From NCBI RefSeq assembly GCF_004348545.1, contig NZ_SMKL01000002.1, positions 1-64,000 of the forward strand: DNA of 64,000 bases. The letters run 5' to 3'. Made by a program: the position numbers and the translations under genes. The notes under the pieces are model-generated. The model made no database searches, was not told where the DNA came from, and was given only the letters and a program-made list of their open reading frames with translations. Each line of letters opens with the position of its first letter. Positions within the stretch are counted from its first letter, which is position 1. Below, piece by piece: positions 14,598-59,333 of this stretch. The stretch comes from Jiangella ureilytica (GTDB lineage Bacteria; Actinomycetota; Actinomycetes; Jiangellales; Jiangellaceae).

Positions 14598-16169
14598 TCA
14601 GTCGCGGCGGCGGCCGTAGCCACCCGACGGGCGGCCGCGGCCGGCGCCGGCGCCGGCGCCCTTGTACGGGCGGCCCGAGCCGGACCGGTTCGGCCGGCCG
14701 TTGCCGGACGAGCGCGGCCGCTCGCGCTCCGGCGCCATGGCCGGGGCGTCGGCGAGCGACGTCGGGGTGATGGGACCCTCGACGACGCGGGCGTCGACGT
14801 TCTTGGCGGTGACGCCGGCGCGGCGGAACAGCTCGCCCAGGCCACGCACCTGCCGCGGGGTCGCGACGGTGACGACGGCGCCCGTGGCACCGGCGCGGGC
14901 CGTGCGGCCGGAGCGGTGCAGATAGGACTTGGGCTCGCCGGCCGGGTCGAAGTGCACGACCATGCCGACGCCGTCGACGTGGATGCCGCGGGCCGCGACG
15001 TCGGTGGCGACGACCACCTTGGCACGGCCGGAGCGGAACCGGTCGAGGTTGCGCTCGCGGACCCGCTGCGACAGGTCGCCGTGCAGGTCGACGGCGGCGA
15101 CGCCGGCGTCTTCGAGGTCCTCGGCGAGGCGCGTGGCGCCGTCCTTGGTGCGGGTGAAGACGATGCTGCGCGGGTTCGCCTTCATCAGCTCGGTCATGAC
15201 CTCGAGCTTGTTGTAGGGGCCGACCACGAGCACGTGGTGGTCCATGGTCGTGACGGAGCCGGCGTCGGGGTCGACCTCGTGCTTGGCCGCGTTGTTCAGG
15301 TGCCGGCGGACCAGCCTGTCGACGTCGCCGTCGAGCGTGGCCGACAGCAGCATGCGCTGCCCGCCCTCGGGCGTGGCCGCGAGGAGCTCGTCGACCACCG
15401 GGAAGAAGCCGAGGTCGCACAGGTGGTCGGCTTCGTCGAGCGCGACGACCTCGACGTCGTCGAGCTTGCAGACGCCCTTCTCGATGAGGTCGCTCAGGCG
15501 GCCCGGGGTGGCGACGACGACGTCGGCGCCGCGGTCGAGCCGGCGGATCTGCCGGTCGTACGGCGCGCCGCCGTAGACGGTGACCATGCGCAGCCGCAGC
15601 GCCTCGGCCAGCGGCTCGAGCGCGGTGGTGACCTGGCCGGCCAGCTCGCGGGTCGGGACGACGATGAGCGCCCGCGGCCGGTTCGGCTCGCTGCGCTTGC
15701 CGTCGAGACGGGCGAGGATGGGCAGGCCGAACGCCAGCGTCTTGCCGGAGCCGGTCTTGGCGCGGCCGAGGACGTCGCGGCCGGCGAGGGCGTCGGGCAT
15801 GACGGCAGCCTGGACCGGAGTCGGCTCGACGATGCCGTCGACGCCGAGGATCTTCACGACGCGGTCCGGCACGCCCATGGTGGCGAACGCCGAGCCGGCC
15901 GGGTCGAACGCGTCGATGGCGGCCCGGCGGGCGGGGTCGAAGGAACGGCGCTCGGCGGGGCGGCCGCCCTGGCGGCGGTCGCCGCGGAACGGCCGTCGGC
16001 CGTCGCCGTCACGACGGAAACCGCCCTCGCGGCGGTAGCCACCGCTCTCGCCGCGGTAGCCGCCCTCGCGGCGCGGACCGCCACTGCGGTCGGTTCGCTG
16101 CTGGCGGTAGCCGGAGGAGGAACGGGAATCGGTGCCGGTCGAACCGCCGGCGGGGTCGTACGAAGTCAC
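14598..16169 (-). CDS. DEAD-box ATP-dependent RNA helicase with RGG-rich N-terminus
   Basis: A 523-residue RNA helicase starting at GTG 16169 behind GGAG. The first about 75 residues are a low-complexity Gly/Arg/Tyr region with GGYRGE and GGYRREGG repeats, typical of RNA-binding disordered tails. The core then shows the Q-motif PTPVQAAVMP, motif I AKTGSGKT, Ia PTRELAGQ, Ib TPGRL, II DEAD, III SAT, and the second RecA domain with motif V TDVAARGIHVD and VI HRSGRTARAG. The C-terminus is again Gly/Arg/Pro rich. It likely unwinds structured RNA in ribosome assembly or cold adaptation. It is monocistronic, and about 280 bp without a gene lie upstream of its start. Confidence 0.95.
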   Translation of the reverse strand: MTSYDPAGGSTGTDSRSSSGYRQQRTDRSGGPRREGGYRGESGGYRREGGFRRDGDGRRPFRGDRRQGGRPAERRSFDPARRAAIDAFDPAGSAFATMGVPDRVVKILGVDGIVEPTPVQAAVMPDALAGRDVLGRAKTGSGKTLAFGLPILARLDGKRSEPNRPRALIVVPTRELAGQVTTALEPLAEALRLRMVTVYGGAPYDRQIRRLDRGADVVVATPGRLSDLIEKGVCKLDDVEVVALDEADHLCDLGFFPVVDELLAATPEGGQRMLLSATLDGDVDRLVRRHLNNAAKHEVDPDAGSVTTMDHHVLVVGPYNKLEVMTELMKANPRSIVFTRTKDGATRLAEDLEDAGVAAVDLHGDLSQRVRERNLDRFRSGRAKVVVATDVAARGIHVDGVGMVVHFDPAGEPKSYLHRSGRTARAGATGAVVTVATPRQVRGLGELFRRAGVTAKNVDARVVEGPITPTSLADAPAMAPERERPRSSGNGRPNRSGSGRPYKGAGAGAGRGRPSGGYGRRRD

Positions 16170-51394: not shown

Positions 51395-52540
51395 TCACGA
51401 CGCCACGCGGCCGAGCTGGCGACTGAGCTGGGCGAGGTTGCCCTGGACGGCCGCGTACAGGCCGTCCGCGGTCTCCTTCGGCGTGCGGGTGGAGACGGTG
51501 TAGGGGTCGGTGGCCACCTGGGCGGTGATGGTGGGCTCCCAGTCGGGGGGCAGTGCCGCCGTGCCGCGGAGCGCGGCACTGAGCGACCCCGCCACGCAGG
51601 CCCGGCCGTCGGTGTCGCGGCCGAGGTTGACGGCGGCGACGACGGCCTCGTACGGGTCGGCCCGGCTGATGTTGACGGCGGCGAGCGCCGTGCCGAGCGT
51701 CTCGACCGGCCACAGGATCGTGCGGCCGGCGTACTCGTCGTCGAGCAGGCCACGCAGGTTGCGCCAGTCGCCACCCGCGGGGACGTGCTCGAGGATGTGC
51801 TCGATCTCCGCGCGCGGCAGCGGCGAGAGCCGGGCCAGCGCGGCGTCGATGACGGTGTCCACGGTGGCGTCGGCGCTCAGGCCCTCGGCGATGCCGGCGG
51901 CGACGGCGGACGCGACCTCGAGGGCGTAGTTGCCGGGGACGCCGCTCTGGTCCTTGAGCCGGCCGACGTCGAGGGCGTCGGCGGCGGCCTGGGCGGGGTT
52001 GCCGGCGTTGACGACGCCGACGGCCGCCATCATCGCGGTGACGCCCCAGGCGCCCGGGAAGTAGGCGAACTTGCCGATCTCCCACGGCGGGACGCCGGCC
52101 TTGGCGGAGTAGTAGATGACCTGGTCCTGGCCGCCGAGCAGGATGCCGAACTTCGCCGGGTCGATGTCGCGGACCCAGATCTTCGCGACGTCCTCGACGG
52201 TGACCCGGCCGCCCTTCTCGATGACGGCGGTGACGGTGAGGCGGTGCCGCTCGTGGCCGTCCTCGCTCATGCCGGGCGGGCGGTCGTGCACCTGGTAGGT
52301 GTTCGGGTAGCCGCGGACCACCGGCAGGTTCGGGAACTTGTCCTTCCACTTGTTCGGCTGCGGCAGCATGGTCGTCACCAGGCCGAACTGCTCCTCGATG
52401 TCCTTCCAGTGCATCACCTCGGTGACGTCGCCCATCGAGTGGCCGACCGTCGCCGCGATCTCGACCGCGAGGATGCGGTCGTAGAGGCGGCCGCCGGTCG
52501 GCGCGTCCTGCTCACCGTCGGTCTGCGCGTGCGGCGCCAT
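51395..52540 (-). CDS. ADP-ribosylglycohydrolase-family protein (paralogue 1)
   Basis: A 381-residue all-helical protein of the DraG/ARH family. The N-terminal GHSMGDVTE and the C-terminal NLGRDTDGR (D309 and D311) are the expected metal-site regions. The usual TDDT motif is replaced by S92-E-D-G95 in MSEDGHERHRL, and the Thr after the C-terminal DTD is Gly. ATG 52540 is chosen over the ATG at 52591 because GGGAGGGAC precedes it. Family enzymes cleave N- or O-glycosidic bonds to ADP-ribose or related sugars. Here it sits 75 nt upstream of a sugar importer operon and is divergent from a close paralogue, so a catabolic glycoside hydrolase role is plausible. Confidence 0.82.
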   Translation of the reverse strand: MAPHAQTDGEQDAPTGGRLYDRILAVEIAATVGHSMGDVTEVMHWKDIEEQFGLVTTMLPQPNKWKDKFPNLPVVRGYPNTYQVHDRPPGMSEDGHERHRLTVTAVIEKGGRVTVEDVAKIWVRDIDPAKFGILLGGQDQVIYYSAKAGVPPWEIGKFAYFPGAWGVTAMMAAVGVVNAGNPAQAAADALDVGRLKDQSGVPGNYALEVASAVAAGIAEGLSADATVDTVIDAALARLSPLPRAEIEHILEHVPAGGDWRNLRGLLDDEYAGRTILWPVETLGTALAAVNISRADPYEAVVAAVNLGRDTDGRACVAGSLSAALRGTAALPPDWEPTITAQVATDPYTVSTRTPKETADGLYAAVQGNLAQLSRQLGRVAS

Positions 52541-52660
52541 GTCCCTCCCGGTCGTCGTCGGCACGGGTTCCCATCCGCTGCGGAGCTCCATGGCGGTGGA
52601 TGGTATTCAAAATTCTGTACTCTGGTCAAGGCATCCCTAACCGATCAAAGGACGCGACCC
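52541..52660. promoter_or_regulatory. Divergent promoter region between the two ADP-ribosylglycohydrolase genes
   Basis: An AT-rich stretch (GTATTCAAAATTCTGTAC, 52603-52620) stands out in the 120 bp between the start codons and shows partial dyad symmetry (GTA...TAC ends). It is a candidate operator or -10 region for one or both genes. The nearby GntR protein encoded at 43444-44145 is a possible binder. Confidence 0.4.
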
Positions 52661-53812
52661 ATGCCGACGTTGTTCGAGAAGATCTACGGAGTCGAAGCCG
52701 CCACCACCATCGCCAACTCCATGGGCGACGTGCTCGAGGGCCTGGCCTGGTTCGAGATCGAGGAGAGATACGGGCTGGTCACGGAGTTGCTGCCGCAGCC
52801 GAACAAGTGGGGCAGCCGGCCGGTCATGGGCATCAGTGCCGACGAGAACGGGCCGGCCCGCATGCCGCAGGAGTGGGGCAACGACTTCGTCTGGTACCCG
52901 CACGACCGGCCGCCGGGGCAGAGCGAGGACGGGCACGAGCGGCACCGGCTCGCCGTCACGGCCATCATCGAGAAGGGCGGCCGGGTCACCGTCGAGGACG
53001 TCGCCCGCATCTGGCTGCGCGACATCGACCCGGCGAGGTTCGGCTACCTGCTCGGCCCGCAGGACCAGGTCATCTACTACGCGCTCAAGGCCGGCGTGTG
53101 GCCGTGGGAGACCGGCCGGTACGCCACCTTCCCCGGCATGATCGGCACCTCCAAGATGATGATCGCCATCGGGACGGTGAACGCCTGCGACCCGCGGCAG
53201 GCCGCCCGCGACGCCCTCGACGTGGGGCGCATCAAGGACATCCGCGGCCCCCGCGACAACTACTCGCTCGAGGTCGCGGCGGCGATCGCGGCCGGCACCG
53301 CCGAGGCGCTGAAGCCCGCGGCCACCGTCGACTCCGTCCTGGCGGTCGCGCTGGAGCAGCTGAGCCGGGTGCCGCGGCGTGAGGTCGAGACAGCACTGGG
53401 CTGGGCTCGCGACACCGCCGACTGGCGCGACCTGCGGCCGAAGTTCCAGGACAAGTACCTCGGCCACTGGATGTCCGACGCCGTCGAGATCCTGTCCGGC
53501 GGTGCGGCGATCTTCCAGATCACCGGCGGCCACGTCGAGGACTCGATCGTCCAGGCGGTCAACCTGGGCCGCGACACCGACTGCCGCGCCTATATCGCCG
53601 GCGGCTGGTCGGCCGCGCTGCGCGGGATCGACGCGGTTCCCGAGCGCTGGGTGAAGACGGTGACCGAGCAGGTCGCGACCGATCCGTACACCGTCTCGAC
53701 CCGCACCCCGCTCGAGAGCGCCACCGGGCTCTACGAGGCCGTGCAGAACGAGCTGCGCCGCTCGAAGGAGCGCGTCGCCGACCTGGAGTCCCTCGGCGCC
53801 GGCTCAGAATGA
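52661..53812 (+). CDS. ADP-ribosylglycohydrolase-family protein (paralogue 2)
   Basis: A 383-residue paralogue of the divergent gene, aligning along its whole length: NSMGDVLEG, the same HDRPPG-x-SEDGHERHRL block (S88-E-D-G91), GGRVTVEDVA-IW-RDIDPA-FG, QDQVIYY, and NLGRDTDCR with D305 and D307. The Thr after DTD is Cys here. Middle regions differ more, suggesting separate substrates or a heteromeric pair. AAAGGA lies 9 nt before ATG 52661. The last codon and stop fall inside the left end of an intergenic palindromic element. Confidence 0.82.
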   Translation: MPTLFEKIYGVEAATTIANSMGDVLEGLAWFEIEERYGLVTELLPQPNKWGSRPVMGISADENGPARMPQEWGNDFVWYPHDRPPGQSEDGHERHRLAVTAIIEKGGRVTVEDVARIWLRDIDPARFGYLLGPQDQVIYYALKAGVWPWETGRYATFPGMIGTSKMMIAIGTVNACDPRQAARDALDVGRIKDIRGPRDNYSLEVAAAIAAGTAEALKPAATVDSVLAVALEQLSRVPRREVETALGWARDTADWRDLRPKFQDKYLGHWMSDAVEILSGGAAIFQITGGHVEDSIVQAVNLGRDTDCRAYIAGGWSAALRGIDAVPERWVKTVTEQVATDPYTVSTRTPLESATGLYEAVQNELRRSKERVADLESLGAGSE

Positions 53813-54010
53813 TCACGTCCACCACGGAATTCCGTGCCACACCAGGGCTGTATGCCTGGTGTGGCACGGAATCCCCGTGTGGTGTGGCCATGCCTGCGTT
53901 GGTAATCGCTTTCCAGATGGCGTTCGCAGACGTCACGAGGATTACCTGAGCTTCACCACGATTGCAGGCCTGGTTCACCAGGGAATCGCGTGGTGAACGT
54001 GGTCATTCCC
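53806..54010. repeat. Intergenic palindromic element, copy B, with 18-bp terminator stem
   Basis: The left end (AGAATGATCACGTCCACCAC, 53806 onward) matches the inverted right end (53983-54010, reading GTGGTGAACGTGGTCATTCC), and both resemble the ends of the element at 14359-14523. Inside, ATTCCGTGCCACACCAGG (53829-53846) is perfectly mirrored at 53855-53872 around an 8-base loop, a strong terminator. A further CAGGCCTGGTTCACC segment lies near the right end. The element fills the gap between the convergent paralogue 2 and mntH genes and supplies the former's stop codon. Confidence 0.75.
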
Positions 54011-54016
54011 AGTGGG

Positions 54017-55279
54017 TCAGCCGGTGATGGTGAGCGTCAGCAGGGCCACGTTGAGGCTGACGACCACGGCGCTGACCAGCACGGCCAGCGCCGTGGTCAG
54101 CCGCGAGTTGGCCCACCGGCCCATGACCGACGACTTCGCGGTGACGGCGACCAGCGGGATGATCGCGAACGGGATGCCGAACGACAGCACGACCTGCGAG
54201 AGCACCAGCAGCCAGGTCGGCTCGGCGCCGGTGAGCAGGATCGCGACCGCCGGCACCAGCGTGACGAGCCGTCGGACCAGCAGCGGGATGCGGCGCAGCA
54301 GCAGACCCTCCATGATCACCGCGCCGGCGTAGCAGCCCACCGACGTCGACGCGAGGCCCGACACCAGCAGCCCGACGGCGAACAGCACGCCGATCGCCGC
54401 CCCCAGCCCGGACTCGACCGCGGCGTGGGCCCCGGCGATGGTGTCGGTGCCGTCGACGCCGCGCAGCGAGGCCGCCGCGACCAGCAGCAGGGCGATGTTG
54501 ACGCTCCCGGCCACCAGCATCGCGACCCCGACGTCGGCGCGCGTCGCCCTGAGCAGCCGGCCGACCAGCCCGGGCTCCGGCGTGGCGCCGAACCGGTCGC
54601 GGGCCAGCGCCGAGTGCAGATACACCACGTGCGGCATGACGGTGGCGCCGAACATGCCCGCCGCCAGCAGAACGGTCTCGGTCCCCTCGAACCGCGGGGT
54701 CAGCCCGGACACGATGCCCGACGGCGACGGCGGCTCGACGAACAGCCCGGCCACGAAGCCGACGGCGATGACCAGCAGCGCCGTCGTGACCACGCCCTCG
54801 AACGCCCGCTGCCCCCGACCGTTCTGCACCGTCAGGAGCGCCATGGACACCACTCCGGTGATGACGCCGCCGAGCCACAGCGGCAGGCCGAACAGCAGGT
54901 TCAGTGCGATGGCCCCGCCGACCACCTCGGCGATGTCGGTGGCCATGGCGACCACCTCGGCCTGCAGCCAGTACGCCAGCCGGCCGCCGCGGGGCAGCCG
55001 GTCGCGCAGCACCTCGGGCAGCGACGACCCGGTGACCACTCCCAGCTTCGCCGACAGGTACTGCACCAGCCCGGCCATCGCCGTGGCCATGACCAGCACC
55101 CACACCAGCAGGTAGCCGTAGCCGGCACCGGCCGAGAGGTTGGTGGCGACGTTGCCGGGGTCGACATAGGCGACCGCCGCCACGAACGCGGGACCGAGCA
55201 GCCCCAGCCCCGCGCCGGGCAGCCGGGTCGGCGTCCCGTCCAGTCGCTCCGGACGGCGACGCCGCACCCGTACGTACAT
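54017..55279 (-). CDS. mntH: NRAMP-family manganese/divalent metal transporter
   Basis: A 420-residue, eleven-helix NRAMP protein. The transport-site residues are present: D40-P-G-N43 in TM1 (YVDPGNVATN) and A212-x-x-M215-P-H in TM6 (ATVMPHVVY), the Met that gives selectivity for Mn and other transition metals over Mg and Ca. ATG 55279 comes 6 nt after the nrdB stop, with GGAGG in the end of nrdB as its ribosome binding site, so it is the third gene of an nrdA-nrdB-mntH operon. Proton-coupled Mn2+ uptake beside a Mn/Fe-type R2 protein is a meaningful pairing. No MntR-like site was seen directly upstream. Confidence 0.9.
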   Translation of the reverse strand: MYVRVRRRRPERLDGTPTRLPGAGLGLLGPAFVAAVAYVDPGNVATNLSAGAGYGYLLVWVLVMATAMAGLVQYLSAKLGVVTGSSLPEVLRDRLPRGGRLAYWLQAEVVAMATDIAEVVGGAIALNLLFGLPLWLGGVITGVVSMALLTVQNGRGQRAFEGVVTTALLVIAVGFVAGLFVEPPSPSGIVSGLTPRFEGTETVLLAAGMFGATVMPHVVYLHSALARDRFGATPEPGLVGRLLRATRADVGVAMLVAGSVNIALLLVAAASLRGVDGTDTIAGAHAAVESGLGAAIGVLFAVGLLVSGLASTSVGCYAGAVIMEGLLLRRIPLLVRRLVTLVPAVAILLTGAEPTWLLVLSQVVLSFGIPFAIIPLVAVTAKSSVMGRWANSRLTTALAVLVSAVVVSLNVALLTLTITG

Positions 55280-55285
55280 GAGTCC

Positions 55286-56272
55286 CTATCCTCCGCTGGC
55301 TCGGGCGTCGACCTCGTAGCTGGTGTTGATGGACTCGAAGAAGTTCACCAGTTGCAGCGTGTCATTGGCAGTCGCCATCCACTTCGCGGGATTGGCGACC
55401 TTGTAGTGCGGCTCGAAGCCGAGCTCCTCGAGCCGCCGGTCGGCCAGGTACTTGACGTAGTGGTTGATGTAGTCGGCGTTCATACCCAGGATCCCGGTGG
55501 GCAGTAGGTCGCGGTTGTACTGTTCCTCCATCGCGACGCCGTCGAGGATCATCTGCTCGATCTCGGCGGCGAACTCCGGCGTCTGGAGCTCGGGGTTCTC
55601 GTCCAGCACGGTGAGGACGAGGTTGATGCCGAACTTCAGGTGCAGGCTCTCGTCGCGGACGATCCAGTCGATCAGCGAGGCGAAGTTGCGCAGCAGGTTC
55701 CGCTGCCGGAAGCTCAGCGCCACCATGAACCCGCTGTAGAACCAGATGCCCTCGAGCACGATGTTGTAGGCGACCAGGTTGCGGACGAAGTCCTGCTTGC
55801 CCTCGACGGTGGTGATGTCGAGCGTCTGCTCGGTCATCCGCCTGATGTAGCGGACCTCGAACTCCTCCTTCGCCACCATGGACGGGACACTGACGTGCGC
55901 GGCGTACGCCCGCTCGCGGTCGATGGGGAACGTCTCGAGGACGTACTCGAAGGCCATGACGTGATTGGCCTCCTCCCACATCTGCTTGGCGAGGTACAGG
56001 TGCGCCTCGGCCGCGCTCAGGTACGGGTAGACGCCGAAGGCCAGCGCCTTGTTCACCAGCAGTTCGTTGGGGTTGAAGTAGCTCATGAGGAAGGTCAGCG
56101 CGTGCCGCTCCTCGTCGGACATTCTCTTGAAGTCGGCCATGTCCTCGCCGAGCTGGACCTCGTGCGGGAACCAGGTGTTCGCGACGGCCTGGTTGTACAG
56201 CTCGTACGCCCAGGGGTAGCGGACCGGCTTGAGCAGCAGGCCCTCCTGGATGCCGGTGCCGAGAATGCTCAT
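55286..56272 (-). CDS. nrdB: Ribonucleotide reductase R2 subunit with class Ic (Mn/Fe) signature
   Basis: A 328-residue ferritin-like R2 protein. Metal ligands are E70 (FNPNELLVNKAL), E101 and H104 (EEANHVMAF), E174 (VLEGIWFYSGF), E208 and H211 (RDESLHL). The spacings E70-E101 (31) and E174-E208 (34) are identical to those of E. coli NrdB. The first ligand is Glu instead of Asp84. The radical Tyr position, four residues after the helix-B His, is F108. This Glu/Phe combination is the hallmark of class Ic enzymes such as that of Chlamydia trachomatis, which use a Mn(IV)/Fe(III) centre in place of a tyrosyl radical. The C-terminal NTSYEVDA keeps the radical-transfer Tyr. It follows nrdA by 13 nt. 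Confidence 0.93.
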   Translation of the reverse strand: MSILGTGIQEGLLLKPVRYPWAYELYNQAVANTWFPHEVQLGEDMADFKRMSDEERHALTFLMSYFNPNELLVNKALAFGVYPYLSAAEAHLYLAKQMWEEANHVMAFEYVLETFPIDRERAYAAHVSVPSMVAKEEFEVRYIRRMTEQTLDITTVEGKQDFVRNLVAYNIVLEGIWFYSGFMVALSFRQRNLLRNFASLIDWIVRDESLHLKFGINLVLTVLDENPELQTPEFAAEIEQMILDGVAMEEQYNRDLLPTGILGMNADYINHYVKYLADRRLEELGFEPHYKVANPAKWMATANDTLQLVNFFESINTSYEVDARASGG

Positions 56273-56285
56273 CGTCGTCTCCCCT

Positions 56286-58874
56286 CTACTGGCACGACTC
56301 GCATTGGAGCCGTTCCTGCGGGTCGACGGGGCAGGCGACCGCCTCCTCGCCGGTGTCGACGACCTCCAGCTCGACGGCGTCCGGCGGGGCCGCCGCCGGA
56401 GCCACGACGGGGGCCGCAGCCGCGGCCTCGACAGAGGCCGCCGCCGGGGCCACGACGGGGGCCGCAGCCGTCGCCGTCGTGCCCCGGGCCGCTCCGAAGC
56501 CGCGATGGGGACCGCTCGGCGCAGCATCACTACCGTTCAGCGCTTCGGCTTTGTTGACTCTGACGGTGCTCTGCTCGGCGGTGTGGCGCGGCTTGACGTG
56601 CAGGTAGTACGTGGTCTTGACGCCCTTGGCCCAGGCGGCCGAGTAGATGTCGACCATGTCGCCGATGTCGCGGGTCTCGAGGTACATGTTCCGGCTGATC
56701 GCCTGGTCGATCCACTTCTGCGCCCGGGCCGCGACCTCGATGAACGCATACGGCGAGAGCTGGAACGACGTCTTGTAGATCGCCTTGAGGTCGGCCGGGA
56801 CGGCGTCGAGCGCGGATACGTCGCCCTGGGCGCGCAGCAGGTCCTCGCGCACCTGCTCCCACAGCCCCCGCGCCTTGAGGTCGGCCACCAGGTTGCGGTT
56901 GACCTCGAGGAACTTGCCCGAGCTGGTGGCCCGGCTGAACAGCTGCGAGAACTGCGGGTCCAGGCCCGGCGTCGTGCCCGCGACCAGGCCGATGGACGCC
57001 GTCGGGGCGATCGCCATCAGCGTGGCGTTGCGCATGCCGCCGCGGACCTTGTCGCGCAGGACGTCCCAGTCGAGCCGGCTGGACCGCGACACGGTGATCG
57101 GCACGCCGCGCTCGCGCTCGGCCCGGTCGACGGTGTCGATGGGTACCAGGCCACGGCTCCAGCCGGAGCCGTCGAAGTTGGCGTAGGCGCCGCGTTCGCG
57201 GGCGAGGTCGGCGCTCTGGTCGATGGCGTGGTAGCTGATGAACTCCATGAGCCGGTCGATGAGGTCGTAGGCCTGCTCGCTCTCGTACGACCAGCCCAGC
57301 CGCTCGACGACGTCGGTGAAGCCCATGACGCCGAGGCCGACGGCGCGGTTGAGCTCGTTGGAGCGCTCGGACTCCGGCACCGACGAGACGGTGATGTCGA
57401 TGAGGTTGTCGAGCTGGCGGACGGCGAGCCGGACGCTGTCACGCAGCCGGTCCCAGTCCACTCCGCCGGCGCCCAGGTGGGCGGACAGGTTGATCGACGC
57501 CAGGTTGCAGACGGCGATGTTGTCGCGGTCCTGCGGCAGTGTGATCTCGGTGCACAGGTTCGACAGGTGGATGGTGCCGGTGTTGTCGTTGAGCGCCCGG
57601 TTGTTGATGGTGTCCTTCCAGGTCAGCCAGGGGTGCGACGTGGTCTGCAGGGCGACGAGGATGGCCCGGAACTGCTCGCGCGCCTTGATCTTGGTGAACG
57701 AGCGCAGCTCACCGGCCTCGGCGGCGGCCGCGTACTCGGCGTAGCGCCGGCTGAAGGCGGCGCCGTAGAGCTCGGGCAGGTCGGGCACCTCGAGCGGGTC
57801 GAACAGGTACCAGTCGTCGTCGGCGGCCACCCGGGTCATGAACTCGTCGGAGATCCAGACCGCGGTGTTGGCGGTGCGGACCCTGCGGTAGGGGTCGCCG
57901 GCGTTCTGCCTGAGATCGAGGAACTGAGGGAAGTCGCGGTGCCAGTTCTCGATGTAGAACGCCAGCGCGCCGAACTTCTTGCCGCCGCGCGACACCGCCC
58001 GCAGCGTCGAGTCGATCGTGTGCATGAACGGGATGGGTCCGGTCGAGACGGTGTTGTTGCTGCGGATCGGCGAGCCCTCGGCGCGCAGCTTCGTCACCGA
58101 CAGGCCGATGCCGCCGGTCCCCTTGGTCAGCCACATGACGTCGCGCACGCTCTTGGCGATGTGCTCGATGTCGTCGTGCATCTCCATGACGAAGCAGTTC
58201 GACAGCTGCGAGTACGCCGTCCCCGCGTTGACCAGCGTCGACCCTGCGGCCAGGTAGTCGAGGCTGGACATCTTGGCGTAGAACACGGCGGCGGCCGCGG
58301 TGGGATCCGCCTCGTTCAGCGACAGCCCCATCGAGACCCGCATCCAGAAGAACTGCGGAACCTCCAGCCGGTGGCCGTCGCGGTCGTTGATCATGTAGCG
58401 GTTGCTCATGGTGACCGCGCCGATGTACGTCAGCAGGTCGTCGCGCGTCGGGTCCAGCACGGCCGCCAGCCGGTCGAGGTCGAAGTGGGTCACGAGCCGT
58501 TCGTCGAGGAGCCCGGCGGCCACGCCGTCCGCCACGTAGCCCGGGAACCTCTCCCGATGCAGCTCGGCCAGCTGGTCCGGGGTCTCGTAGTCGCCCAGGA
58601 CGCGCTTGTAGACCGTCTTCAGCAGCACGCGGGCCGCGACGGTGTCGAAGGCCGGGTCGTCGCGGACGTTCTGCAGCGCGACCTGGACGACGGCCTCGTC
58701 GAGCTGCTGGCTGGTGATGCCGTCGAACAGGGTGATCTCGAGTTCGGACTGCAGCTGCGTGACGCGGGCGACCTGGTTGTCCAGGCCGACGCTGGCGGCC
58801 TCGATGGCCCGGGCGATCTTGTAGCCGTCGTACGGCTCCACCGACCCGTCGCGCTTGACGACGTTGACGCTCAT
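56286..58874 (-). CDS. nrdA: Ribonucleotide reductase class I catalytic subunit
   Basis: An 862-residue R1 protein. A single ATP-cone (residues 1-95) regulates overall activity. The active site is intact: C227 (QLSNCFVM), N439-L-C441-T-E443 (SNLCTEI, the thiyl Cys flanked by Asn and Glu), C456 (IAVCNLAS) and the Tyr-Tyr radical pair in KTTYYLHV. The tail is unusual: after the core comes an Ala/Pro/Val-rich linker of about 60 residues with two copies of APVVAPAAA, ending in the redox pair CESC, so the swinging arm is long. ATG 58874 lies about 200 nt downstream of a cobalamin riboswitch, meaning expression falls when B12 is plentiful. Confidence 0.96.
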   Translation of the reverse strand: MSVNVVKRDGSVEPYDGYKIARAIEAASVGLDNQVARVTQLQSELEITLFDGITSQQLDEAVVQVALQNVRDDPAFDTVAARVLLKTVYKRVLGDYETPDQLAELHRERFPGYVADGVAAGLLDERLVTHFDLDRLAAVLDPTRDDLLTYIGAVTMSNRYMINDRDGHRLEVPQFFWMRVSMGLSLNEADPTAAAAVFYAKMSSLDYLAAGSTLVNAGTAYSQLSNCFVMEMHDDIEHIAKSVRDVMWLTKGTGGIGLSVTKLRAEGSPIRSNNTVSTGPIPFMHTIDSTLRAVSRGGKKFGALAFYIENWHRDFPQFLDLRQNAGDPYRRVRTANTAVWISDEFMTRVAADDDWYLFDPLEVPDLPELYGAAFSRRYAEYAAAAEAGELRSFTKIKAREQFRAILVALQTTSHPWLTWKDTINNRALNDNTGTIHLSNLCTEITLPQDRDNIAVCNLASINLSAHLGAGGVDWDRLRDSVRLAVRQLDNLIDITVSSVPESERSNELNRAVGLGVMGFTDVVERLGWSYESEQAYDLIDRLMEFISYHAIDQSADLARERGAYANFDGSGWSRGLVPIDTVDRAERERGVPITVSRSSRLDWDVLRDKVRGGMRNATLMAIAPTASIGLVAGTTPGLDPQFSQLFSRATSSGKFLEVNRNLVADLKARGLWEQVREDLLRAQGDVSALDAVPADLKAIYKTSFQLSPYAFIEVAARAQKWIDQAISRNMYLETRDIGDMVDIYSAAWAKGVKTTYYLHVKPRHTAEQSTVRVNKAEALNGSDAAPSGPHRGFGAARGTTATAAAPVVAPAAASVEAAAAAPVVAPAAAPPDAVELEVVDTGEEAVACPVDPQERLQCESCQ

Positions 58875-59047
58875 GCTCTCTCCTCGCGAGCTCGGCTGGC
58901 TCGGCCCACGGCGCTGACGGAGAGGGGCGAGGAGAGATGCGTCGCCGGCACCGCGCCGGTGGGGCGTCGGGTCGCTGGTGGCGCCCGGGCGCGGCGGTGA
59001 GTTCGTCGGCGTATCGTCCCCTGGCCCCTCCCTCGGGAGCCGCGGAC

Positions 59048-59072
59048 CACCGCACGCGTGGCGCGTGCGGTG
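59048..59072 (-). terminator. Hairpin just downstream of the cobalamin riboswitch
   Basis: CACCGCACGCG (59048-59058) and CGCGTGCGGTG (59062-59072) form an 11-bp stem with a 3-base loop, placed 2 nt past the riboswitch closing stem on the minus strand. It could be the expression platform (intrinsic terminator without U-tract) that responds to cobalamin binding; translational or Rho-based control is also possible. Confidence 0.55.
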
Positions 59073-59073
59073 C

Positions 59074-59277
59074 GCTGGCAGGTCTTCGGACTCACGGGCG
59101 CAGAGGCCACCTGGCGGGTGGCGTTCCACCTACTGGCCGTCGCTTCCCAGGCCTTCACGTATGTCGGCCCAGTGCTTCGTTGACGGCGGTCGTTCCCGTT
59201 CACCGCTGCGGGGCAGTCCCGGACTCACACCGGGTTCCCTGTTGCCCCCGCCGATCCGGCTGACCGGCGGAACCAGC
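59074..59277 (-). promoter_or_regulatory. Cobalamin riboswitch controlling nrdA-nrdB-mntH
   Basis: On the minus strand the conserved core GGTGTGAGTCCGGGACTG, followed by CCCCGCAGCGGTGA, and the B12-box-like GTGAGTCCGAAGACCTGCC (59095-59077) are present in the right order. The domain is closed by GCTGG/CCAGC (59277-59273 with 59078-59074). Actinobacterial class I nrd operons are known to be switched off by this riboswitch when the B12-dependent class II enzyme can work. It begins a few bases after the predicted transcription start. Confidence 0.93.
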
Positions 59278-59285
59278 TGCGAGAG

Positions 59286-59333
59286 CCACACTATCTGGTA
59301 GTTACAAAGATGCAAGTCACCTACATCTAGTGT
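59286..59333 (-). promoter_or_regulatory. nrdA promoter with tandem NrdR boxes
   Basis: Minus-strand TTGCAT (59315-59310), 16 nt, TAGTGT (59293-59288) forms the promoter. Two 16-bp boxes related to the NrdR consensus CwAtATaTwG lie at 59286-59301 (CACTATCTGG core) and 59318-59333 (CTACATCTAG core), starting 32 bp apart. That three-turn spacing is typical for NrdR pairs. The first overlaps the -10, so NrdR would repress. Confidence 0.7.

Follow-up and report, generated by a model that had tools for sequence, protein, structure and literature searches.

Cobalamin riboswitch, paired NrdR boxes and a two-hairpin RNA platform upstream of class Ic-type nrdA-nrdB and mntH in Jiangella

Why should the gene for a putative manganese importer stand at the end of a row of ribonucleotide reductase (RNR) genes whose leader carries both NrdR-type boxes and a cobalamin riboswitch? 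The question is raised by a stretch of DNA from the soil actinobacterium Jiangella ureilytica, 64,000 nucleotides long and here called the window. A sequence-only reading of this stretch had taken mntH for an odd passenger through which cobalamin would lower manganese import. Our analysis points to another answer, which we consider probable: nrdA, nrdB and mntH would form a cofactor-supply operon of a class Ic (Mn/Fe) RNR, placed under NrdR and a B12 riboswitch. The passenger view gives way here because NrdB is of the class Ic type, so that the importer may bring in the very metal that the enzyme uses, and because the linkage recurs in other genomes. We have trimmed our confidence on account of the way in which leaders were selected and of the weaker L048 and ZIP cases, all described below.

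The nrdA leader

Three elements upstream of nrdA bear on its transcription:

59318..59333, minus strand: NrdR-type box 1, ACACTAGATGTAGGTG, from the box-pair scan
59286..59303, minus strand: NrdR-type box 2, from the box-pair scan, overlapping a -10 element (TAGTGT) assigned by eye
59060..59292, minus strand: cobalamin riboswitch aptamer, RF00174, cmscan 82.4 bits, E 8.8e-19

The complete cobalamin riboswitch that had been read from the letters alone was borne out by the Rfam covariance model, which is covered from position 1 to 189 of 189 at a score far over its cut-off of 31.5 bits. Nothing else in the 64-kb window exceeds an Rfam cut-off, and the leader RNA is a candidate adenosylcobalamin-binding switch. 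Elsewhere in the window, ARAGORN places a tRNA-Ser at 15969-16065 (minus strand), and no Rfam tRNA match lies over cut-off.

In the NrdR regulon, promoters carry two boxes spaced by about three turns of the helix, and the nrdA leader has a pair at that spacing. Scored against the NrdR box consensus, the pair reaches 20 of 32 in either of two registers, with box 2 at 59303-59288 or at 59301-59286 and thus 30 or 32 bp from box 1; the two NrdR-like boxes reported earlier are therefore present, and their reported spacing of 32 bp is one of two equally good values. No other place on either strand of the window scored 19/32 or more in the paired-box scan, and a score of 20 was reached by one of 500 local shuffles of the 600-base nrdA leader. 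Within the clade of related NrdB loci, a box pair (counted if it scored above the best of 40 shuffles of the same locus) precedes nrdA in 82 of the 89 unique loci scanned and is absent from 7, with a spacing of 32 bp in 55, 31 in 12, 30 in 11 and another value in 4. Twelve of 18 distant nrdA loci likewise exceed the best of 40 shuffles, and such pairs precede nrdA both with and without a riboswitch. The genome also carries nrdR, beside nrdJ (TIGR00244, 167.3 bits over a cut-off of 124.65); upstream of nrdR itself there is a weak NrdR box candidate, and 12 of 500 shuffles score as high.

A strict consensus promoter scan of the nrdA leader found none. By eye, a promoter of the form TTGCAT-N16-TAGTGT can be read, its -10 element at 59293-59288 overlapped by box 2, and two leaders from Phytoactinopolyspora (L131 and L133) have TTGCAT-N16-TAATGT in the corresponding position. 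Judging from this by-eye promoter, transcription would start just before the aptamer. Dual control of an actinobacterial nrd operon by NrdR and a riboswitch fits the sequence.

Behind the aptamer lie two hairpins:

59048..59072, minus strand: platform hairpin 1, CACCGCACGCG-CCA-CGCGTGCGGTG, an 11-bp stem read directly
59024..59040, minus strand: platform hairpin 2, GCTCCCGAGGGAGGGGC, with a conserved loop core

The first, which overlaps the 3′ end of the aptamer match and looks terminator-like, is the lone 11-bp hairpin of the sequence-only reading; it is present at 59072-59048 and its stem covaries, and it proves to be one of two that form a conserved platform, the second being common to selected Tyr-type and Phe-type nrdA leaders. 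No Rfam match was found for the hairpin 2 stretch up to an E value of 1. The comparison rests on 34 leaders with nrdA of the Phe and Tyr types, namely 31 of 65 leaders that were picked with the folds in view and 3 more, with repeats and leaders of differing 3′ region (for example L072, L076, L094, L112, L141, L150 and L152) omitted. Because the leaders were selected, the following figures are valid for that group only: two-sided changes occur in 7 of the 7 modelled pairs of hairpin 1 and in 4 of the 6 of hairpin 2 (99% of whose cells are paired), giving 11 of 13 pairs and 96.6% of cells pairing for the whole platform, and the covariation score is 0.639, compared with 0.193 for shuffles and no more than 0.092 on sliding the model. 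The fold energy of the whole leader gave no signal (z -0.01), so covariation was taken as the evidence instead.

A model built from the 34 leaders (R1) hits the Jiangella leader at 59076-59014. It matched 38 of 76 sources, comprising 24 rows of the model, 2 of identical DNA and 12 further ones, with L154, L051 and L090 as weak matches. All but one of the 38 stand no more than about 350 bases ahead of nrdA, the exception, L154, overlapping the estimated nrdA start. Among named clade loci, R1 was found in 23 of the 27 with a riboswitch (L059, L072, L076 and L112 being the exceptions) and in none of the 22 without; nor was it matched in the genome's own nrdRJ and btu stretches (L006, L007). When 22 Jiangellaceae genomes were searched with 150 candidates scored per genome, each of the 16 with nrdAB gave one strong match just 3′ of its nrdA riboswitch, and the 22 together gave three further weak ones. 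In G021, which has no R2 gene, a cobalamin riboswitch is followed by a weak platform match (G021:C12:13055-13312).

A terminator scan found no U-tract terminator in the leader: hairpin 1 is followed by GTCCGCG and so has the stem of an intrinsic terminator without the U tract, which means that intrinsic termination is not assured; it may still act like a terminator. The conserved platform is a possible route by which the riboswitch acts, and as an RNA element of nrdA leaders it would be new, with no match in Rfam.

Gene order and the small subunit

The leader is followed by three genes:

56286..58874, minus strand: nrdA, class I RNR large subunit, 862 aa, with an N-terminal ATP cone
55286..56272, minus strand: nrdB, small subunit of class Ic type, with Phe108 at the position of the radical Tyr
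54017..55279, minus strand: mntH, NRAMP importer, 420 aa, with DPGN and MPH motifs

NrdA matches the profiles NF005101 (1531 bits), PF03477 and PF02867. MntH matches NF001923 at 446.5 bits over a cut-off of 430 and PF01566 at 345.3 bits, and the closest solved chain is an MntH (8e5s, E 1.3e-95); its product is likely to be a manganese importer. The gaps are 13 nt between nrdA and nrdB and 6 nt between nrdB and mntH, with a GGAGG within the 3′ end of nrdB ahead of mntH. The nrdB-mntH pair is kept in all 12 Jiangella genomes compared (which include the assembly of the DNA studied here), with nrdA in front in 11 and a contig break in G008. Given these gaps and this conserved order, mntH very likely belongs to one transcription unit with nrdA and nrdB, as the earlier reading had it. 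Beyond mntH, the divergent genes at 51395-52591 (minus strand) and 52655-53812 (plus strand) match DRAG-type ADP-ribosyl hydrolase models far below cut-off.

It is worth considering that mntH may be joined to the nrd genes physically and yet be regulated separately, from an internal promoter in nrdB (for example under MntR), so that the riboswitch would govern nrdAB only. A B12-independent supply could be useful: the operonic mntH is the best NRAMP match in all 12 Jiangella genomes, 11 of which have no second close NRAMP (G006 has one, at 79%; G011 and G015 carry paralogues at 26–28%), and MntC-type matches do not exceed 34% in the 12, in a search that covered the NRAMP and MntC types. Moreover, Jiangellaceae that lack nrdAB and an R2 gene keep the importer of their relatives, standing alone, as mntH in G001 (79%) and as an MntC-type protein in G016 (with an in-frame stop), G019 and G021 (67–73%). 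The 6-nt gap and the GGAGG inside nrdB argue against separate control. So does the region itself: no consensus promoter was found in 53700-56400 (by a scan to which the nrdA promoter, too, was invisible), and at fourfold sites of nrdB codons 301-325 conservation is 0.82 against a gene mean of 0.86, so that no conserved hidden mntH promoter is visible there. We consider separate control unlikely. Within a shared unit, an internal promoter or a partial shut-off by B12 may exist; since 11 of the 12 genomes have no second close importer of the NRAMP or MntC type, a full shut-off of mntH by B12 would be costly, and either B12 leaves some mntH expression or it lowers manganese import at times when NrdJ is working.

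The metal to be supplied depends on the class of NrdB. Its best solved chains are the class Ic R2 of Chlamydia trachomatis (1syy and 4d8f/4m1i), at 240–242 bits and 37.5% identity, and its Phe108 (Phe109 in a translation with one extra leading residue) aligns with Phe127 of that protein. At positions 89, 120, 123, 193, 227 and 230, which we take to be the metal ligands of Chlamydia R2, both proteins have E, E, H, E, E and H. Apart from its distance in sequence, the Jiangella protein differs in having Trp in place of Chlamydia Tyr222, and we know of no riboswitch or importer operon for the Chlamydia enzyme. The structure 4M1I is described as that of the C. trachomatis class Ic protein in the accessible part of PMC9936198, and Phe at the radical position is tied to a Mn(IV)/Fe(III) cofactor in the sections at hand of PMC9936198 and PMC4009431. 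NrdB is therefore of class Ic type and should probably need a Mn/Fe cofactor, as predicted from these residues. A class Ia assignment of nrdB was also considered and is ruled out by the Phe at the radical position.

The same residue characterises the whole clade. All 103 clade rows, from 96 genomes (7 rows repeat a genome), have Phe at the radical position; the remainder of the 121 loci compared are 3 Phe loci of another type and 15 Tyr loci, the main distant type. These 18 distant loci are a sample (distant matches of this kind occurred in 95 genomes in the class search), and the named NrdB loci are 80 of 561 matching NrdB stretches. The other Phe-type group (L141, L147 and L151) has the motif EEAVHTHTF, like Chlamydia, with no importer behind nrdB and no R1 match. 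Each of the 12 Jiangella genomes has exactly one R2 gene.

A second alternative keeps MntH as the supplier and makes NrdB another kind of manganese enzyme, such as a di-Mn R2. For class Id, a Mn2 centre that does without an organic radical has indeed been proposed, according to the portion of PMC6754362 available to us, but class Id keeps its Tyr, as stated in the part of PMC9936198 seen, whereas the aligned residue here is Phe. The scores point the same way, with the Chlamydia chains ahead of 6y2n at 225 bits and of all further structures at 124 or less. We regard a di-Mn enzyme as improbable, and return to the class Ic reading.

Importers behind nrdB

The flanks of all 121 nrdB loci were searched with NRAMP, MntC, ABC-3 and ZIP proteins, and 26 of the 96 unique clade genomes proved to have an importer downstream of nrdB and in the same orientation: NRAMP in 19 (12 of them Jiangella), MntABC in 3 and ZIP in 4. 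The other 70 have none of the tested families behind nrdB, the contigs of two (L063 and L111) ending within 1 kb. The 15 loci of Tyr type and the 3 other ones of Phe type showed no importer within about 3.5 kb downstream (1.5 kb in L156), and elsewhere in the flanks importer matches were confined to L073, with an NRAMP of 45 bits upstream, and L091, with a ZIP protein at a distance of 5.4 kb.

The NRAMP genes mostly follow nrdB within about 150 bases; in L048 roughly 1 kb intervenes, with one small gene and possibly an ORF in the reverse orientation. The MntC genes follow at 25–310 bases. In Phytoactinopolyspora the partner is an operon of MntABC type, MntC being the closest match of its binding protein (E 8e-105), and the three genomes concerned have no NRAMP match. 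The ZIP genes lie about 430–490 bases from nrdB, and at least two of them are separated from it by a small gene. Since zinc is a frequent substrate of ZIP proteins, these are the weaker cases of linkage; the ZIP protein in L055 falls just below the ZupT cut-off. A gene of 140–144 aa stands behind nrdB in L048, L052, L055, L058, L063, L077, L091, L101 and L137, followed in some by an importer, and a domain scan of the L101 copy found LRV/HEAT repeats.

The linked NRAMPs are not one clade. A tree of 26 NRAMP rows, which include 13 of the 19 linked proteins (five repeat rows having been dropped), has strongly supported branches that require four or more changes of linkage, gains being indistinguishable from losses and L060 sitting on a very long branch. 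The cassette itself is patchy, its NrdB clade occurring in 23 of the 393 genomes of the class sample, and outside Jiangella the clade's NrdB proteins are 82–90% identical across families. In our reading, the class Ic cassette has been favoured upstream of a resident manganese importer. That a moving cassette merely landed by chance beside importers, with no metal link, would suit its patchiness, its high identity and the 70 genomes that lack an importer, but is very improbable in view of three unrelated importer families on the same side and strand, the repeated changes of linkage, the 0 of 15 Tyr-type loci linked and the presence of only two hits elsewhere in the flanks.

Cobalamin, NrdJ and related systems

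Taken together with the leader, the class Ic reading suggests the following course of events. NrdR would act at the promoter, and the transcript would then pass the adenosylcobalamin riboswitch. With cobalamin bound, the aptamer would close P1 and the two-hairpin platform would end the transcript early, so that in the presence of B12 nrdA, nrdB and mntH would fall together and the class II enzyme NrdJ would make deoxynucleotides. When B12 is scarce, the whole unit would be made, and MntH would import the manganese needed by NrdB. We infer the direction of the switch, B12 turning the nrd operon off, by analogy with Streptomyces nrdABS, where it has been reported, and Cutibacterium nrdAB, where it has been proposed; early termination, a single transcript that includes mntH, the Mn/Fe metal and the feeding of NrdB by MntH are likewise predicted.

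Parts of this arrangement are already in print: B12 riboswitches before nrdAB, with nrd-boxes beside one of them, are described in the portions seen of PMC4991794 and PMC3848588. In Streptomyces coelicolor, nrdABS has a B12 riboswitch and is repressed by B12 (Borovok 2006, as cited in the accessible text of PMC4991794). The likeness lies in a cobalamin riboswitch before nrdAB and in NrdJ as the B12-dependent partner; unlike the Jiangella genes, nrdABS is reported to be of class Ia, its third gene is the AraC-like nrdS, and no importer is mentioned in that part of the paper (PMC4991794). In addition, two leaders that we take to be from Streptomyces (L150 and L152), the largest genus of the class sample, are without the R1 platform. 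The nrdAB operon of Cutibacterium (Propionibacterium) acnes also combines a cobalamin riboswitch with an nrd-box, and much of its transcription appears to end before the first gene; it differs in having a single nrd-box, and no importer is mentioned, as far as the available sections of PMC3848588 go. The Fur-controlled class Ib RNR operon of Enterobacteriaceae similarly ties RNR expression to metal economy, but there a protein senses iron, whereas in Jiangella an RNA would sense cobalamin, with the importer in the operon itself (PMC9936198, in the part consulted).

In the open-access literature we found no paper on a cobalamin riboswitch with mntH or another manganese transporter, and none, in the parts of the papers available, on a cobalamin riboswitch or a class Ic nrdAB joined to a manganese importer. 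Such a pairing is absent from the accessible sections of PMC3848588, PMC9936198, PMC6754362, PMC4428469, PMC8463856, PMC4991794, PMC2667541, PMC7689651, PMC4009431 and PMC8123684. We put forward tentatively, as a proposal whose prospects fall a little short of even, that cobalamin signals manganese import, that class Ic cassettes have repeatedly been placed upstream of the host's manganese importer, be it NRAMP, MntABC or perhaps ZIP, and that the platform is new. If this is true, an RNA switch sets the cell's main manganese importer together with the Mn/Fe RNR that MntH feeds, and a cobalt cofactor, B12, controls the import of another metal through RNA. To our knowledge, it is an open question how a class Ic RNR obtains one manganese and one iron in the cell, and an operon that joins a manganese importer to an RNR, in several lineages and with several importer families, makes this question of supply testable.

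It is informative to set the riboswitch beside NrdJ, whose gene adjoins nrdR in the Jiangella genome and which is the other RNR seen there besides that of NrdB. Across 67 of the 96 clade genomes (23 from the class sample and 44 named non-repeats), a riboswitch stands at nrdA in 44 of the 48 with NrdJ versus 1 of the 19 without, in counts that ignore relatedness (many riboswitch-less genomes are named Leifsonia and kin) and come from clade searches with stricter filters that lose weak matches, so that 'no riboswitch' may hide weak ones. By the same kind of count, an importer follows in 26 of the 45 riboswitch genomes versus 0 of the 22 others, or 15 of 34 versus 0 of 22 with Jiangella counted once; 26 of 45 overstates the share, since the genomes examined include every one with an importer and the other 29 have none. 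The association of NrdJ with the riboswitch is strong and yet falls short of a strict rule; its exceptions are four NrdJ genomes without an nrdA riboswitch and one MAG with a riboswitch and no NrdJ (together G410, G415, G419, G428 and G442).

Two further observations concern cobalamin riboswitches. L059, from a bin labelled Chloroflexi, has a riboswitch, class Ic nrdAB and mntH, with no NrdJ match; transfer, mis-binning and an incomplete bin are the options. In the Jiangella genome itself, the only other cobalamin riboswitch over cut-off (G000:C142:10826-10970; L002, L007) precedes genes that, from their open reading frames, read like btuFCD and cobalamin synthesis.
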